Positions 1 to 10,940 of a DNA stretch of 21,787 bases are shown piece by piece. Below the pieces are notes generated by a model. That model was not told the DNA's origin. It made no database searches and saw only the letters and a list, made by a program, of their open reading frames with translations. The stretch comes from a virus. Both the position numbers and the translations under genes were made by a program. How positions within the stretch are numbered: the first letter of the stretch is position 1; every line of letters begins with the position of its first letter. Location of the stretch: positions 1-21,787 of IMG/VR virus record IMGVR_UViG_3300043444_000267; one strand, 5' to 3'.

Positions 1-2
1 AC

Positions 3-113
3 GACGCCCTGTCGGCATACACGAAGAAGTACGGCCAGCCCCAGAAGGCGGATCAGGATCAGTTGGAAGCGATGTTCCGCAGTCAGTATCGGACGAGCAG
101 ATCCGGGAGATGA
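3..113 (+). CDS. 3' end of truncated reading frame upstream of the multidomain protein
   Basis: From base 3 the third frame reads DALSAYTKKYGQPQ and onward to a TGA at 111-113. Its codons mostly end in G or C, as in the real genes here, while the second frame over the same bases has poorer codon use, so this is probably true coding sequence entering from the left. Its last codons (after about base 89) look less natural than the second-frame reading SDEQIRE, which runs straight into the next protein. Two readings are possible. It may be the tail of a separate gene overlapping the next by ATGA (110-113). Or it may be the N-terminal part of the same gene, split by a one-base deletion near 81-92. 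The product is not recognisable from 36 residues. Confidence 0.5.
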   Translation, partial: DALSAYTKKYGQPQKADQDQLEAMFRSQYRTSRSGR

Positions 114-2998
114 TGGCCGACCCGGGCAACTTCGTGCGCAAGACAGCGGACGACTATGCCCAGCGGTACACAGGCTCACCCTATGAGCTTCCCAAGATCC
201 CCGAGTCCTCGCTGGCCAAGCAGTCGGCCATCGGTCGCACCTTCCAGTTGGCCGCAGAGGATGACCCCAAGTACAAGAGCGCGGTCTTCGATGCCTACGC
301 CAAGAAGTACCCCGACCTCGTCGAGCAGACCGGCGCACAGAACTACGACCAACTGATGGAGGCCGCGTACCGGCAGTTGGCCATGGAGACGGAGAAGCAG
401 TTCCGCTCCCTGCCCATCAACATGTCGTACCACCGACAGGGCGAGGGCAACTACACCTCGAGCGGCCAGATGCTCAAGGACATCTACGGCAATCGCCACA
501 TGTACGTCTACCAAGGCGGTGACCCCCACGACTTTCTGAACCTGATCGACCCGCAGACCGGCTTGAACACCAACGAGATGTTCCGGGCCGTGCATGACTT
601 CTATGGCCACGCCATCCACGGCAACCAGTTCGGCCCCAAGGGCGAAGAGGTGGCATGGGCCGCACACAGCAAGATGTTCTCCCCGCTCGCTCGCATCGCC
701 ATGACCAGCGAGACCCGTGGCCAGAACTCCTTCGTCAACTACACCCCGCTCAACGCCGAGTTGAAGGCCCAGATCAGCAAGCTGGACGAGGCCATCATGG
801 ACGCCAAGCGCAAGCGCCGCACCGAGGACGTCAAGATGCTCGAGGACGCCAAGAAGGGCGTCTGGGCCGAGTTCCAGTTCGCGCCCCAGAAGAGCGTGAT
901 CCTGCCGCCTGAGTTCCTCGACCTCGAGTACAAGGGTGGCATGCCCAGCTACATCCAGCCGCTGGTCAAGCCTGAGGCGGGCACCACCGCCGCGTCTGAG
1001 TTGACCCACTTCAGCCACAGCCCCGACATCGAGATCATCGACCCGACCCGGTACGGCACCGGCATCAAGGGCCGCGAGATGGAGCGCCTGACAGGCACCG
1101 AGAACCCGGTGATGGAGCGCTCTTACTTCTACACCGGCGAACCCGGCTCCGTGCGTCCTGAGCCCGGTCTGGGCATCAACCGCTACGGTGCCCGCAGTGA
1201 GGGCCTGTACGACGTCGCCGCCGACCCGATGAACTTCCGCAAGCTGGCCACCGAGGCCAACCGCACCCCGTTCACGGCCAAGTACAACCAAGGCATCACC
1301 GACCCCAGCCAGTCCTTCACCGACGTGGAGCGCATGGCCAAGGAGTACGGCTACGAGGGCCTGATGAACCCCCAGCAGGGCACGGCCATCATGTACCAGC
1401 CCACACCGGTGCGCCGCTACTCGTGGGGCGGCTTCGTTGGCCAAAGCCCGGACGGCACCGAAGGCATCCAGACCCCATTCAACACCACGCCCGACATGGC
1501 CGACGGCGGACGCCTGATTGCTGACACGGAACTGAACCGCTACGCCGCTGGCGGGCTGGCCCACTTCGACCGTGGCGGCGCGGCCAAGAAGGAGGTCAAG
1601 GAGTGGCTCAAGGGTGCCATCGACAGCCTGACCAAGAAGTTCGCCGACGACGCTGACAAAGCGAAGTCAAAGCCAATCGCAACCGAATCGGTTATCTCGA
1701 GCACCATCGCCAAGTCGGCGGACGAGATCGCCAAGGCCAACCCGAAGCTGTCCGAGGCAGAGATCGCCAAGAAGGCCGAGCGCGACGCCTTGGCCAAGCT
1801 CAAGTGGGAGCGGCAGGAGAAGCCCGCCATCGAGAACCGGTATGGCAAGCTGGCCCGCTCGAGCTACGACGATCCCCGGGCCAAGCGCCTGCGCAACGTG
1901 CCCGAGGTGGTCGAGGAACGCGCCAGCAAGGCCGAGCAGTTCTTGGCCCAGCCCACAGAGCCGTGGACGCCTCCCAAGCCCGAACTGCAGGCCTTCGACC
2001 GCTCCCTCATCAAGGACGCGCTGGAGGGCTTCCCGGGCGTCGAGCAGAGCCGCTTCCCCCGCTACCAGCCTGCCCGGGCCGACACCGGCTACATCGACGA
2101 GATCTACGACGACCCACGCAACCGCGCCCTGATCGAGAAGCAGATCAAGCGCGGCCTGCCGCTGGGTGGCGAGACCTTCTACGCCAGCCTGTACCCACTC
2201 AAGGTCGCGGCCATGGAGCGCGGCATCCCCGCAGAGAAGTTCGAGCAGTTCGTCTACCAGACCGCCCCGGCCAGCGCCCGCAACTCGATCATGAACGAGA
2301 TGGCCGTGGGCCAGTTCCTGCGCGACATGAACGCCCGGGGCTTGCCGCTGGACGAGAAGACCGTGGCCGAGGAGATGGGCAAGTTCAAGAGCCAGTACGG
2401 CACGGGCCTGCCCCTGATGCCCGTCCACCGCGAGGGTGTGCGTCAGGTCATCGAGGGTGGCCAGAACATGCGCGACCTTGTGAAGGCCGACATCCCGACC
2501 AACTACAAGATCCCGACCTATGGCACCCAGAAGGCTGGCGACTTCGGCAAGAGCATGGTACTCGACGTCCACGAGTCCGCTGGCCAGACGCAGGGAAGCC
2601 GCTACCACCCGTACTTCACCGAGCAAGGCGGCTTCGGGCCGACCGAGTACGGGCTGGCCGAGAGCAAGATGCTGGACATCGCCAACGAGATGGGCATCCC
2701 CGGAGGCATGGCGCAGGCTGGCCGCTGGTTCGGTGGTGGTGAGTTGACCGGCCTGAAGTCACCCCGAGGCGACGCCCTTGACCTGCTGGAGCGCCAAGCC
2801 GCGTACACCATGCAGGGCCTTGGCCTCAAACCCACACCGAAGATGATCCGCGAGTATGTCCTTGACATGATCGAGAGCGGTCGCGGTGTGCTGATGCCGT
2901 ATTACAAGTCGGAGGCGATGCCCGACTATCGAACCCAGAAAAAGAAGGGCGGTGCCGTACGATCCGGCCTGTCCGCCTTAGAACATGCGAGGGCATAA
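110..2998 (+). CDS. Large multidomain phage protein (polyvalent-like; ART-like and DUF7178-like regions)
   Basis: The 962-residue protein has at least three blocks. Residues 1-280 hold a conserved phage domain with a histidine/acid cluster (HDFYGH at 162-167, GEE at 178-180, H186, ETRGQ at 201-205), which looks like a metal-binding or catalytic site. Residues 297-437 (LTHFSH, YGTGIKG, YGYEG) resemble the ADP-ribosyltransferase-like domains of phage polyvalent proteins. A Gly-Gly linker with YAAGGLAHF (478-486) and a charged helical stretch follow. Residues about 630-930 carry LDVHESAG and GMAQAGRW, in a pattern reminiscent of DUF7178 phage proteins. Polyvalent proteins are often packaged and injected; that role is inferred here. 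The gene sits directly before the portal. ATG 110 and ATG 113 both have poorly spaced Shine-Dalgarno sequences, and the frame is open to the left edge, so the true start may lie upstream (see the suspected frameshift). Domain names come from memory of motif patterns. Confidence 0.8.
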   Translation: MMADPGNFVRKTADDYAQRYTGSPYELPKIPESSLAKQSAIGRTFQLAAEDDPKYKSAVFDAYAKKYPDLVEQTGAQNYDQLMEAAYRQLAMETEKQFRSLPINMSYHRQGEGNYTSSGQMLKDIYGNRHMYVYQGGDPHDFLNLIDPQTGLNTNEMFRAVHDFYGHAIHGNQFGPKGEEVAWAAHSKMFSPLARIAMTSETRGQNSFVNYTPLNAELKAQISKLDEAIMDAKRKRRTEDVKMLEDAKKGVWAEFQFAPQKSVILPPEFLDLEYKGGMPSYIQPLVKPEAGTTAASELTHFSHSPDIEIIDPTRYGTGIKGREMERLTGTENPVMERSYFYTGEPGSVRPEPGLGINRYGARSEGLYDVAADPMNFRKLATEANRTPFTAKYNQGITDPSQSFTDVERMAKEYGYEGLMNPQQGTAIMYQPTPVRRYSWGGFVGQSPDGTEGIQTPFNTTPDMADGGRLIADTELNRYAAGGLAHFDRGGAAKKEVKEWLKGAIDSLTKKFADDADKAKSKPIATESVISSTIAKSADEIAKANPKLSEAEIAKKAERDALAKLKWERQEKPAIENRYGKLARSSYDDPRAKRLRNVPEVVEERASKAEQFLAQPTEPWTPPKPELQAFDRSLIKDALEGFPGVEQSRFPRYQPARADTGYIDEIYDDPRNRALIEKQIKRGLPLGGETFYASLYPLKVAAMERGIPAEKFEQFVYQTAPASARNSIMNEMAVGQFLRDMNARGLPLDEKTVAEEMGKFKSQYGTGLPLMPVHREGVRQVIEGGQNMRDLVKADIPTNYKIPTYGTQKAGDFGKSMVLDVHESAGQTQGSRYHPYFTEQGGFGPTEYGLAESKMLDIANEMGIPGGMAQAGRWFGGGELTGLKSPRGDALDLLERQAAYTMQGLGLKPTPKMIREYVLDMIESGRGVLMPYYKSEAMPDYRTQKKKGGAVRSGLSALEHARA

Positions 2999-3001
2999 CC
3001 C

Positions 3002-5548
3002 ATGGCCACAGAATTTCCAATCGAACAAGACTACAACCGCTTCGTTGACGGCATGCCGCAAGACGGTGGCGCAGAAGAGGGCGGCGTTGAAGTTGAAGTC
3101 GATCTCGACGACAGCGAACTTGAGGAGCTACCCGACGGCTCCGTCGTCGTTCACATGGACACCAAGGGGCCGATGGAGAACGAGGACTTCTACCAGAACC
3201 TCGCCGACAGCGACTCCATCGACATCCTCGACCTCAAGGGCATGGCCCTGCGCTACATCGAACTGGTCGAGAAGGACAAGGAAGCCCGCAAGCAACGCGA
3301 CAAGCAGTACGAAGAGGGCATCAAGCGCACCGGCATGGGCAACGACGCCCCCGGCGGCGCGACGTTCTCTGGTGCCAGCAAGGTGGTTCACCCGATCATG
3401 GCCGAGGCCTGCATCGACTTCGCCGCTCGCGCCATCAAGGAGATGTTCCCGCCTGACGGCCCGACCAAGACCAAGATCCTCGGCGACGTAGACGAGGAGA
3501 AGACCGCGATTGCCGAGCGCAAGCGCGACTTCATGAACTGGCAGTTGACCGAGCAGATCGAAGAGTTCCGCGACGAGGAAGAGCAACTGATGACCCAGTT
3601 GCCGCTGGGTGGCTCGCAGTACCTCAAGCTCTGGTACGACGACAAGAAGAAGCGCCCCTGCGCCCAGTTCCTGCCCATCGACAACGTGCTCCTGCCCTTC
3701 GCCGCTGGCAACTTCTACACGGCCCAGCGTGTGACCGAGGTGGACGACATCAGCGAGTACGAGTTCAAGCGCCGCATCGCCTCGGGCCTGTACCGCGACC
3801 ACAACTACATCCGCGCCTCGATGGATCCCGAGCCGACTGCCGCGCAGAAGGCCACTGACAAGGTCGAGGGCAAGTCGCCCAACGACAACGAGGACGGCAT
3901 CCGCCGCGTGTACCACATCTACTGCTGGATGGAGGTCAAGGGCGACAACTACGCCAAGGGCGAGATGGCCCCCTACATCCTGATGGTCGACGAGATGGAG
4001 ACCGAGGTGCTGGGCCTGTACCGCAACTGGGAAGAGGGCGACGAGACGATGACCAAGCTCGACTGGATCGTCGAGTTCAAGTTCATCCCGTGGCGCGGCG
4101 CTTACGCTGTGGGCCTGCCGCACATCATCGGTGGCATGTCCGCCGCCCTGACCGGTGCGCTCCGCGCTCTGTTGGACAGCGCACACATCAACAACGCGGC
4201 CACCCTGCTCAAGCTCAAGGGGGCCAAGGTCTCCGGTCAGAGCCAGCAGGTGGAGGTCACGCAGGTGGCCGAGATCGAAGCCGCCCCGGGCGTGGACGAC
4301 ATCCGCAAGCTGGCCATGCCCATGCCATTCAACCCGCCCTCGCCGGTGCTTTTCCAGCTTCTGGGCTGGCTTACGACCGCCGCCAAGGGGGTGGTGACCA
4401 CTGCCGAGGAAAAGATCGCCGACGTGAACTCCAACACGCCGGTGGGCACCACGCAGGCCCTGATCGAGCAGGGTGCGGCGGTGTTCTCCTCCATCCATGC
4501 CCGCCTGCACGAGTCGCAGGCCCGCGTCCTGCGCGTCCTGAGCCGCATCAACCGCTGGTATCTGGACGACATGCGCCGTGGCGAGGTGGTCGAGGATCTG
4601 GACATCAAGCGCGACGACTTCGCCCGCATCACGGACGTGATCCCGGTGAGCGACCCGCACATCTTCTCCGAGACCCAGCGCATGGCCCAGACGCAGGCCG
4701 TCATGGCGCTGATGGAGAAGCACCCCGACCTGTTCAACCGCCGTGCCGTGATCCAGCGCTTCCTCAAGCAGATCAAGGTGCCCGGTGTCAACGAACTGAT
4801 GACGGACGTGCCGCCCCCGGCCAAGATGGACGCGGCCAACGAGAACGTGGCCATGTCGATTGGCCAAGCCGCCTTCGCCTACCCTGAGCAGGATCACCTC
4901 GGCCACATTCAGGCCCACCTTGACTTCGCAAAGAGCCCGATCTTCGGCGGCAACCCTGTGATCGCCCCGGGTCTGTTGCCCAAGATGGTCGAGCACATCA
5001 AGCAACACCTCGTGCTGTGGTATCTGAACCGCATGAACGGCTACGTCAACAAGTCGCTGGGCCAGAAGCTGGACGACTACGAGTTGATCGAGGATCCCAA
5101 GGACGTGGACAAGCTCTTTGGCGCGGCCAGTCAGCATGTGGCCATGGACGCCGAGCAGACCCTGCAGGGCATCATGCCGGTCATCCAGCAGATGGTCGAG
5201 GGCCTGCAGAAGTTCAAGCCCCAACCGCAACTCACGCCAGACGCGCAGGTTCTGCTCCAGACCAGCATGGCCGAGACCCAGCGCCGTCAGGCTCGCGATC
5301 AGGCCGAGCTTGGCTTGAAGGACAAGCAGTTGGCCGCGAAGATCCAACTGGACATGGACAAGATGAATCGCGACTACGAAGAAGCGATGGAAGAACAACG
5401 TCTCCGCCTCGCCATTGCAGTGGGCGACATGGAGACCAAAGAACGCATCGAAACAGCCCGACTCACGCGGGATGCGGCCCGATTGAAATTCGATCAGGAC
5501 AAGACTGCTTTCAACCCAACCTCAGGAGGCTTAAATGGCTACCAGTGA
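3002..5548 (+). CDS. Portal protein
   Basis: This 848-residue protein would form the dodecameric portal ring at one capsid vertex, through which DNA is packaged and ejected. The family pattern is seen at about residues 120-215: ASKVVHPIMAEACIDFAARA, a MFPPDGP segment, then LPLGGSQYLKLWYDDKKKRP and PIDNVLLPF. This block is typical of portals of podovirus-like phages. The N-terminus is acidic (residues 22-45). The C-terminal part (about 755-835) is rich in Gln, Glu, Lys and Arg and predicted helical, like a portal barrel or coiled coil. The length suits the longer podovirus portals. It starts three bases after the upstream stop codon with a GAGGG ribosome site, and its end overlaps the next small gene by 14 bases. 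The scaffold, GroES and capsid genes downstream support the call. Confidence 0.92.
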   Translation: MATEFPIEQDYNRFVDGMPQDGGAEEGGVEVEVDLDDSELEELPDGSVVVHMDTKGPMENEDFYQNLADSDSIDILDLKGMALRYIELVEKDKEARKQRDKQYEEGIKRTGMGNDAPGGATFSGASKVVHPIMAEACIDFAARAIKEMFPPDGPTKTKILGDVDEEKTAIAERKRDFMNWQLTEQIEEFRDEEEQLMTQLPLGGSQYLKLWYDDKKKRPCAQFLPIDNVLLPFAAGNFYTAQRVTEVDDISEYEFKRRIASGLYRDHNYIRASMDPEPTAAQKATDKVEGKSPNDNEDGIRRVYHIYCWMEVKGDNYAKGEMAPYILMVDEMETEVLGLYRNWEEGDETMTKLDWIVEFKFIPWRGAYAVGLPHIIGGMSAALTGALRALLDSAHINNAATLLKLKGAKVSGQSQQVEVTQVAEIEAAPGVDDIRKLAMPMPFNPPSPVLFQLLGWLTTAAKGVVTTAEEKIADVNSNTPVGTTQALIEQGAAVFSSIHARLHESQARVLRVLSRINRWYLDDMRRGEVVEDLDIKRDDFARITDVIPVSDPHIFSETQRMAQTQAVMALMEKHPDLFNRRAVIQRFLKQIKVPGVNELMTDVPPPAKMDAANENVAMSIGQAAFAYPEQDHLGHIQAHLDFAKSPIFGGNPVIAPGLLPKMVEHIKQHLVLWYLNRMNGYVNKSLGQKLDDYELIEDPKDVDKLFGAASQHVAMDAEQTLQGIMPVIQQMVEGLQKFKPQPQLTPDAQVLLQTSMAETQRRQARDQAELGLKDKQLAAKIQLDMDKMNRDYEEAMEEQRLRLAIAVGDMETKERIETARLTRDAARLKFDQDKTAFNPTSGGLNGYQ

Positions 5549-5699: not shown

Positions 5700-5882
5700 A
5701 TGGCAACACTAGGAGATCTGATCGGCGGGATCAAGGCATCGCAGGCTGAAATAGCCTCGTCCATGGCGCGTGGTAATGCGCCGAATTGGGATGTCTATCA
5801 ACGTCTGGTCGGTAAGTACGAGGGACTGCAAGAAGCTCTCGACATTTTGAATAACCTGATAAAGGAAGAAGAAGATGAATGA
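5700..5882 (+). CDS. Small conserved phage protein, helical
   Basis: The 60-residue protein (MATLGDLIGGIKASQAEIAS...) looks like two amphipathic helices with an acidic tail (KEEEDE). The central YQRLVGKYEGLQEALDIL pattern resembles a small protein commonly found near phage portal genes. It has no membrane segment or cysteines. The start lies nine bases after the previous stop codon and lacks a clear Shine-Dalgarno, so translation is probably coupled. Its stop overlaps the GroES-like start by eight bases (5875-5882), a typical operon junction. Function unknown; an adaptor or head-assembly accessory role would fit the position. Confidence 0.75.
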   Translation: MATLGDLIGGIKASQAEIASSMARGNAPNWDVYQRLVGKYEGLQEALDILNNLIKEEEDE

Positions 5883-6306
5883 ACCGGTAGTGGCTGACGC
5901 CGCTGAATTGGCTTGGGCTTTTCCGAGCGTAGACCCCGGTGCCAAACCTCTTGGCGGACGCATTCTTGTGCAATTGCGCCGCACCAAAAAGAAGGCAACG
6001 AGTGCTGGGATTATCTTGGTCGAAGAGACCAAGGAAACCGAGAAGTGGAACAACATGGTGGCCAAGGTCGTTGAGATCGGCCCGCTTGCGTTCAAGCATC
6101 GCGAGACCATGCTCCCATGGCCAGAAGGCTCATGGTGCGAGGTCGGCGACTACATCCGCGTCCCCAAGTGGGGCGGAGACCGTTGGGAGGTAAAAGTCCC
6201 CGGTGATGATGACCATGAAGACCCCGCGCTCTTCATGATCTTGAACGACCACGAGGTGATCGCACGGGTCACCGGTAACCCACTCGAGATGAAGGCATTC
6301 CTATGA
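5875..6306 (+). CDS. GroES-like co-chaperonin
   Basis: The 143-residue protein follows the GroES (Cpn10) pattern: PLGGRILVQLRR at the first strand, then a mobile-loop-like stretch (about residues 36-58), then MVAKVVEIGPLAF, VGDYIRVPKWGGD and a final MILNDHEVIARV. The loop keeps a hydrophobic Ile-Ile-Leu triplet (46-48) in the place where GroES uses Ile-Val-Leu to dock on GroEL. The protein is longer than bacterial GroES (about 97 residues) because of an N-terminal extension and extra residues around FKHRETMLPWPEG. Phage co-chaperonins such as T4 gp31 replace host GroES to fold the capsid protein. Its place between portal and scaffold, upstream of the coat gene, supports that role here. No GroEL gene is seen, so it would use the host ring. 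It overlaps both neighbours. Confidence 0.88.
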   Translation: MNEPVVADAAELAWAFPSVDPGAKPLGGRILVQLRRTKKKATSAGIILVEETKETEKWNNMVAKVVEIGPLAFKHRETMLPWPEGSWCEVGDYIRVPKWGGDRWEVKVPGDDDHEDPALFMILNDHEVIARVTGNPLEMKAFL

Positions 6307-9387: not shown

Positions 9388-9837
9388 ATGTCGCAAACTT
9401 ACTTCGGTTCCGCTTTGCGCTCGGGTTCCGGTACGTTGACTGACACCACTGACGGCGGTTTCGTCGTCTTGATGCAGACAACCACTGTGACCACGAACGC
9501 AGACGGCACCGCATCCAGCGCCAGCGTCGTCATCCCTTCCGGTTCTCAGATCGTTGACATCCTCATCGATCAAGTACAGAACGAGGTTGTGGGTGGTGGC
9601 TCTGCTACCGCGATCAACGCAACCGTTGGCACTGCCGCCGCTGGTACTCAGTACCTGTCGGCCACGGATGTCATCGGTGGTGGTCGCGCCGCACTGACTT
9701 TTACAGCCGCTCAGTTGGCCGCGATGGCTGACGTTGGTGCCAACACCAGCGTCTTCCTCACTGTCGATCCGAACGGAACGATCAGCACAACTCAGGGCAT
9801 CTACCGCTTCACCGTGGTATACGCTCAGAAAGGTTGA
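9388..9837 (+). CDS. Small beta-rich virion protein, unknown
   Basis: The 149-residue protein is rich in Thr, Ser, Gly, Ala and Val with alternating hydrophobic residues (GGFVVLMQTTTVTTNADG, GSQIVDILIDQVQNEV), consistent with a beta-sandwich. It ends in GIYRFTVVYAQKG. There is no signal peptide or membrane helix. AGGAG (9377-9381) six bases before the ATG supports the start. It lies just after the capsid gene and its hairpin, so a head decoration or head-completion role is likely but unproved. No named family was recognised. Confidence 0.75.
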   Translation: MSQTYFGSALRSGSGTLTDTTDGGFVVLMQTTTVTTNADGTASSASVVIPSGSQIVDILIDQVQNEVVGGGSATAINATVGTAAAGTQYLSATDVIGGGRAALTFTAAQLAAMADVGANTSVFLTVDPNGTISTTQGIYRFTVVYAQKG

Positions 9838-9845
9838 GGCGAATC

Positions 9846-10940
9846 ATGGGCCAATTCAAACCTATGGTCAAAATGATGACCACTGAGCCTTCAGTCGAAC
9901 TGAAGCTCAAAAAGGGTGGCTCCGTGAAAAAGGCTGACGGCGGCATGATGGGGGCACCCGCTCCCGCTATGCCTGCCGCGATGCCTGCTCGCGGTGGCTC
10001 CATGCCCGCCGCCGCCCCCGGCAAGCCGTCCATGATGGCTCGCCGTCGTGCGATGAAGGGTATGCCTGCAGGTGCTGGCCCAGCCGCGCCTGTCGGCATG
10101 GCCGCTCGCATGATGAAGGAAGGCGGCGAATCCAAAGCCGAGCACAAGTCGGAAATGGCCAAGATGGCCAAGACCGCCAAAGCGCTCAAAGAGCATGCCG
10201 ACAAACCCGCGTCCAAGGCCCACAAAGGCCTGAAGACCGGCGGCGTGGTCAACGGCCAAGGTGGCTTCAAAGCTGGTGGCATCATCAACACTGAAGGCCA
10301 AGGCGGCAAGTACCGCAACACCAAGATGGACACGGCTACGCCCGATCACTCGCCTGCCAAAACTGGCGGCGTGAAGATGGGCAACGGCGGTGGCTATGCG
10401 ACTGGTGGCGTGGCGAAGGCAAACGGCGGTGGCTACAAAAAAGGTGGTGCCGCAAAAAAAGCCTACGCCACGGGGGGACTTGTTGACGACGGTCGTCCCG
10501 TGGCGATGCCCCAAGGCCGCAAGCCTGCACCGAAACCAGTGAGCATCACTGCTCTTTCGGGCACCTACAAGGCTGGCGGTAAGGTCTCTCCCACTCCCGC
10601 TCAGAAACGACTGCAAAAGTCGTTCGAGGAGGAAAACAAAGAAGCCGTGCGCGACTCCAAGCGGAACACTCGCGAGAAGTACGCAGACGGCGGATCTGTC
10701 CCTTCTGACGTTCAAGATCAGTTGATGGATGCCAAGAATGCCAAGGCATACAAGAACTGGGAGAAGTCAGAGCGTGAAGAGAACGAAGCCATGCGCGGTG
10801 CAATCCTCGGCGCTCCAAAGCGCATGATGGAGGGCATCAAAGGCCTCTTCGGCAAGAAGACACCTGAAGGCAGTGTGACCAAGACTGAAAAGTCTGTGAC
10901 TGTCACACCAGCTAAAAAGCGCGGCGGACGAGTCTGCTGA
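9846..10940 (+). CDS. Gly-Gly-motif low-complexity basic protein
   Basis: The 364-residue protein is unusual in composition. Residues 24-95 are rich in Met, Ala, Pro and Gly, and 96-130 form a Lys/Ala helix. Residues 131-212 hold closely spaced Gly-Gly motifs such as KTGGV, FKAGGI, NGGGYATGGV and YKKGGAAKK. A charged helical part (about 255-315) follows, and the end is KKRGGRVC. Similar GG motifs occur in the first large protein and in the gene at 12023. No enzyme domain or membrane segment is seen. Position suggests a virion or assembly protein; function unknown. A TTG start at 9834 is possible, but ATG 9846 with GAGG (9836-9839) is better. A seven-A run lies at 10454-10460. A complete terminator follows the gene. 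Confidence 0.75.
   Translation: MGQFKPMVKMMTTEPSVELKLKKGGSVKKADGGMMGAPAPAMPAAMPARGGSMPAAAPGKPSMMARRRAMKGMPAGAGPAAPVGMAARMMKEGGESKAEHKSEMAKMAKTAKALKEHADKPASKAHKGLKTGGVVNGQGGFKAGGIINTEGQGGKYRNTKMDTATPDHSPAKTGGVKMGNGGGYATGGVAKANGGGYKKGGAAKKAYATGGLVDDGRPVAMPQGRKPAPKPVSITALSGTYKAGGKVSPTPAQKRLQKSFEEENKEAVRDSKRNTREKYADGGSVPSDVQDQLMDAKNAKAYKNWEKSEREENEAMRGAILGAPKRMMEGIKGLFGKKTPEGSVTKTEKSVTVTPAKKRGGRVC

Follow-up and report, generated by a model that had tools for sequence, protein, structure and literature searches.

A widespread phage-only domain with a near-invariant HDxxGH/GEE/ETRGQN signature in a portal-adjacent multidomain protein of probable polyvalent type

What is the role of a large phage protein that is encoded directly beside the portal gene, combines several unrelated-looking modules and carries a patterned cluster of histidines and glutamates? 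Is it a component of the particle, or an effector carried within it? This question is raised by a 21,787-base virus record, the whole of which is hereafter called the window, and we approached it by means of profile comparisons, structure prediction and analysis of gene neighborhoods. The reading that we favor, with a probability of roughly 60%, is that this is a polyvalent-type phage protein, whose linker-joined modules would be packaged along with the head and enter the cell together with the DNA, the first of them (domain 1) being its active part. Polyvalent proteins are already a known class; domain 1, for its part, is very widespread and has neither a family name in Pfam or NCBIfam nor a structural match in the PDB. 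The coordinates of the features discussed below are collected in Table 1.

Table 1. Features of the multidomain protein and its locus in the window, and two solo relatives of domain 1
Feature	Coordinates	Strand	Basis or remarks
Multidomain-protein gene, 5'-truncated	2..2998	+	Open frame; relative L002 starts upstream
Domain 1, phage-only, HDxxGH / GEE / ETRGQN signature	194..979	+	phrog_3170, alignments A1 and A4, AlphaFold2
HDFYGH motif	593..610	+	Read directly from the sequence
GEE motif	641..649	+	First Glu invariant in 62 diverse homologues, second nearly so
ETRGQ motif	710..724	+	E, T, R and G nearly or fully invariant (62 homologues)
Domain 2, ART-like; His (1007-1009) and Tyr present, strand-5 acid absent	992..1429 (about)	+	A2, 33-sequence alignment, Foldseek, hhalign
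Linker between modules, Gly-Gly/charged, low-confidence (YSWGGFV, YAAGGLA, FDRGGAA)	1430..1789	+	pLDDT <50 in large part
Domain 3, distant DUF7178-like module	1790..2959	+	hhalign to clade 2
Portal protein	3002..5548	+	phrog_1216, E 1.4e-19
LKA1 ORF7 (Pseudomonas phage), short solo domain-1 relative	L243:3662-4228
phi15 ORF2, short solo domain-1 relative	L267:1329-1820

The ORF that the first-pass annotation had placed beside the portal is real: long and on the plus strand, it lies directly upstream of the portal gene and bears the HDFYGH, GEE and ETRGQ motifs. The gene start given there, position 110, is wrong: no stop codon interrupts the frame from base 2 onward, and the stretch before the ATG chosen there (RRPVGIHEEV...) matches the closest relative (L002, 93% identical), whose gene begins 188 codons before the first in-frame codon of the window and 224 before that ATG. 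The true start therefore lies before the contig, by about 190 codons, and the window shows 998 residues of a contig-cut gene. The gene order in relatives is terminase small subunit, terminase large subunit, multidomain gene, portal and GroES-like gene, and the portal-adjacent position is thus conserved. The GroES-like co-chaperonin of the window (5875-6306; phrog_3188, E 3.5e-9) follows soon after the portal; one is likewise listed near the portal region of phage ct7L0027 (MW202675).

Domain 1 is matched over residues 64-212 by the phrog_3170 profile (E 1.4e-17), whereas nothing in Pfam or NCBIfam rises above cut-off for this region. Pattern scans with two different queries recovered domain-1 relatives in 368 and 347 viral stretches, sets that may overlap. 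The HDxxGH motif is present in 219 of 221 homologues, the other two being fragments, and it is followed by E[TSV]xG in all but one of the 219 that cover the region, the lone exception having G in place of the second Glu. In an alignment of 62 sequences, with residues numbered from window base 164, no variation is seen at F140, R141, H144, D145, G148, H149, E161, H168, T184, G186 or N188, and almost none at E183. The earlier description of this His/Glu block as highly patterned is thereby borne out, with conservation in 218 of 219 homologues going far beyond chance; the further suggestion that it looks catalytic is favored by the conservation, but no known enzyme fold was matched.

AlphaFold2 predicts a confident, helical structure for domain 1 (pLDDT 91.5, pTM 0.87), with the strictly conserved H, D, H, E and E on successive helices, as one would expect if the domain were an enzyme dependent on a metal or formed a binding pocket. 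The proposed check by structure prediction thus yielded a confident fold but no match in the PDB: a Foldseek search with the domain-1 model returned no solved structure that matches. No reaction can for that reason be assigned to domain 1, and it is its conservation that argues for an enzyme; on the strength of the motifs it is likely to be the main candidate enzyme of the multidomain protein. When searched against viral models, the same structure retrieved proteins whose names read ART-PolyVal-like, large polyvalent protein or phage head morphogenesis, the proteins of the Bxz1-like phages and of Skog, and short ones from phages that include LKA1 and shl2.

The 188-residue LKA1 ORF7 and its relatives, found in 123 phage records of which most are T7-like phages of Pseudomonas, have in common with domain 1 the signature N..FR..HD.(.)GH ... 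E ... [ED]T..Q. A profile-profile comparison of the LKA1 ORF7 family with domain 1 (hhalign) gave E 4.9e-6 and a probability of 86% over 111 columns, as against about 0.7 for reversed controls, and by this measure domain 1 has homologues in the short proteins encoded close to the genome ends of T7-like Pseudomonas phages. Of the 60 records listed, 44 have the short gene no more than 7% away from a genome end and 54 no more than 13%, though some records may be rotated; in phi15 only one annotated gene precedes it. LKA1 ORF7 and phi15 ORF2 both lie near the left end of the genome. The left-end region of T7 holds the early takeover genes, and by analogy with this plan the short genes may be expressed early. 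Given these small versions near the genome start of other phages, domain 1 probably has its role in the opening minutes of infection. It is possible, and we put it forward only tentatively, that domain 1 defines a new enzyme family whose active site is H-D-H-E-E and which serves phages as infection begins, being injected as part of a polyvalent protein or, in T7-like phages, encoded by an immediate-early gene of its own. The short versions occur in cultivable T7-like Pseudomonas phages (phi15, LKA1 and phiIBB-PF7A), making the function of domain 1 directly testable, and a function found there would predict its role in the large proteins of uncultured phages.

The short versions also bear on a more specific assignment, namely to the non-haem iron hydroxylases, as a distant relative of the aromatic amino acid hydroxylases that would act on host or DNA components. 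The order of its H-D-x-F-G-H...E motif is identical to that of the iron-ligand motif of PF00351, and in the model a strand-helix-strand unit immediately precedes the motif helix, an order of elements that in our reading resembles that of the hydroxylase family. A weak, motif-only hhalign match (14 columns, E 0.003) points the same way, but hhalign probabilities are 10-23% over 9-14 columns, no member of the family is among the best 50 Foldseek PDB matches of domain 1, and the short relatives have HDxGH or HDxxH spacing. We consider this assignment highly improbable, and identification of domain 1 as a PF00351 hydroxylase was rejected, the likeness being confined to the motif, with no profile or fold similarity over the domain. 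An HD phosphohydrolase (PF01966), considered for the HDxGH likeness, was likewise rejected, its E of 0.07 being no better than the 0.096 of the reversed control.

Domain 2 has no Pfam match by hmmscan. AlphaFold2 models its main strands with pLDDT of about 80-93, and the top PDB match of this model in Foldseek is AcrIF11 (6KYF; probability 0.95, E 0.054). An hhalign comparison with ART-PolyVal, which was represented by 18 segments from related viruses, one of them (L343) taken on the wrong strand, gave E 7e-5 as against 0.7 for reversed controls, the alignment covering the C-terminal GYDG...F.P..IK region. The strand-1 His (H15) and strand-2 Tyr (Y54/Y56) are invariant in the domain-2 alignment (A2). 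In contrast, the strand-5 acid position is occupied by T, M or V both in a 33-sequence alignment and by comparison with ART-PolyVal, domain 2 reading GTAIMY, GMAIMY or GLVAVMF where ART-PolyVal has EVV.F. In Tox-ART-HYD2 the strand-5 acid is D (PMC5512222). A study of AcrIF11 (PMC12421852) confirms that 6KYF is this protein and describes it as an ADP-ribosyltransferase in which D115 (AcrIF11Pae1) is key. Of the first-pass assignment of domain 2 as an ADP-ribosyltransferase-like domain, the ART-like part stands, but it is no proven enzyme: with the conserved strand-5 acid missing, ADP-ribosyltransferase activity appears doubtful from its sequence.

These features bear on an alternative in which domain 2 is an active ADP-ribosyltransferase that is injected and modifies host proteins in the manner of T4 Alt or AcrIF11. 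The AcrIF11 fold match, the ART-PolyVal profile match and the conserved His and Tyr all speak for it, but the replaced acid speaks against it, as do several relatives (L012, L101, L103, L108 and L117) whose ORF contains, besides domains 1 and 2, an ART-PolyVal domain that passes its cut-off. With such a separate domain available, there is no need for domain 2 to be the active ART, and we regard this alternative as quite unlikely. As the usual acid has been lost, domain 2 would rather be an ART fold that probably binds NAD or a target, or that uses other residues.

In the linkers of the multidomain gene (2-2998) and in window 9834-10940, [Y/F/K]xxGG[A/V/L] repeats are concentrated (5 and 13, respectively, of one pattern). 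The Gly-Gly motif was rejected as a packaging tag, the pattern being too loose and capsid ORFs scoring higher. A Rabenosyn Pfam match in the multidomain protein was also discarded as a coiled-coil match below cut-off, and PADLOC reported nothing credible.

Domain 3 was connected to DUF7178 through intermediates. The window-type domain matches a second clade of relatives, clade 2 (hhalign probability 96.6, E 5.4e-10), and members of that clade score 26.5-27.8 bits against the DUF7178 model (PF23802; cut-off 27) and also match phrog_3842, as do the DUF7178 proteins of actinophages. PF23802 itself finds no match in domain 3 of the window, such that the DUF7178-like part previously proposed is upheld by way of clade 2 and not by a direct match. 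As the connection runs in two steps, it is distant and the case for it modest. The model of domains 2 and 3 together is weak overall (pLDDT 59.7), and we therefore claim no fold for domain 3. DUF7178 gave no match among 198 actinobacterial genomes, but neither did it in the control genomes. The idea that DUF7178 is a glycosylase arose from a VDTH motif and a label in Gordonia phage Skog, whose gp165 and gp166 (L122:498-3627) were annotated 'glycosylase' by the depositors; HhH-GPD profiles lend this label no support, and the HhH-GPD DNA glycosylase family (PF00730) was rejected for DUF7178 and domain 3 at E 0.1 or worse, with a profile of five glycosylase sequences only.

The three modules recognized in the first-pass annotation are indeed present in the one protein of the window, but they do not constitute a fixed protein, as domain 3 is separate or otherwise fused in many relatives. 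Among near-relative loci, all three window-type domains occur in one ORF in nine; domains 1 and 2 occur without a detected domain 3 in 20, some of which are contig fragments; domain 3 is a separate gene in 14, is of the clade-2 type and fused in one, and occurs without domain 1 in four. Other modules enter at this same terminase-portal locus: in L005 the gene immediately upstream carries ART-PolyVal, and domain 3 is joined to LPD23 in L030 and to a PcfJ-like domain, of a family that conjugative plasmids have as well, in L014 (2-2908). In Rhodococcus phage E3, gp205 unites domain 1 and DUF7178 in one protein, and the two are encoded by adjacent genes in Pio (gp110/gp109) and Skog (gp166/gp165). 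Domain 1 is found in 204 records and DUF7178 in 202, dominated by actinophages, and the hosts of the two sets are distributed almost identically. Set against the favored reading, the actinophage copies of domain 1 are surrounded by small uncharacterized genes, about 12 kb ahead of the gene for the tail sheath. In Microcystis phage Mel-JY33, domain 1 is part of a 4012-residue protein (L238:10554-22592) encoded directly after the lysozyme gene. This 'lysin' also holds an LPD22-like part, just below cut-off, and a domain-2 relative, and is better described as a polyvalent protein. In Mycobacterium phage Pio, gp109 and gp110 (L124:789-3987), which are otherwise unrelated, have a common N-terminal TAREQFEMLxPW (phrog_30890), and Skog gp166 begins with a similar motif. 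Within about 150 kb of Pio sequence motifs of this type were found in gp109 and gp110 only; the motif is possibly a shared targeting tag.

Such swapping weighs on the alternative that the protein is a head or ejection-apparatus component, a portal-proximal scaffold or DNA conduit without catalysis. Its position beside the portal and the Gly/Ala-rich hydrophobic N-terminal region of its relatives would suit such a component, as would the E3 relative gp205, which the depositors named 'structural protein'; predicted functions in the E3 record carry 'putative', and the label hence suggests, though it does not prove, detection in virions. However, domain 3 can be detached and exchanged, domain 1 is also made by itself as a short protein, what is conserved in domain 1 is a set of near-invariant polar motifs rather than surfaces, and relatives are fused to ART-PolyVal enzymes. 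We consequently hold a purely structural role to be rather unlikely.

The polyvalent-type reading accommodates both the locus and the modules. As the class and its late-gene context are set out by Iyer et al. 2017 (PMC5512222), two or more disparate domains are joined in one polypeptide; here domains 1, 2 and 3 are separable in relatives, and the gene lies beside the late, virion genes of a portal-terminase phage. Domains of the polyvalent network, ART-PolyVal, LPD23 and PcfJ, are found in relatives at the same locus and not in the window's own protein, and with these relatives the idea of an injected effector fits the class. In the mechanism that we propose, the protein, whose gene sits between those for the terminase large subunit and the portal, would be packaged with the head and enter the cell with the phage DNA. 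Domain 1 would likely be its active part, perhaps as a metal-binding catalyst, accompanied by the ART-like domain 2 and by domain 3 as a DUF7178-like module that appears to travel with domain 1. The whole would be an early effector carried in the particle, which may act on host or defence targets.

Comparison with known systems places each module at some remove from its nearest relative. The closest solved fold to domain 2 is that of the anti-CRISPR AcrIF11, yet domain 2 lacks the equivalent of D115 and is lodged inside a large protein; ART-PolyVal (PF18760) is reached by hhalign but not by hmmscan, and the acid before its last strand is missing from domain 2. For domain 3 the relation to DUF7178 is the near-cut-off one through clade 2. 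Members of phrog_3170 and phrog_7806 (Bxz1-like gp110; LKA1 ORF7) are united with domain 1 by the common signature and by hhalign and viral Foldseek homology, but differ from the window's protein in being solo or two-gene versions. Unlike the polyvalent proteins of phages and conjugative elements, as far as the consulted parts of PMC5512222 describe them, the window's protein has no Pfam match to a zincin-like peptidase, which is common though not universal in the class, or to any other named polyvalent domain, and domain 1 is not found described in those parts; like them, it is a multidomain, linker-joined protein encoded by the late and portal genes, with an ART-like domain and swappable modules.
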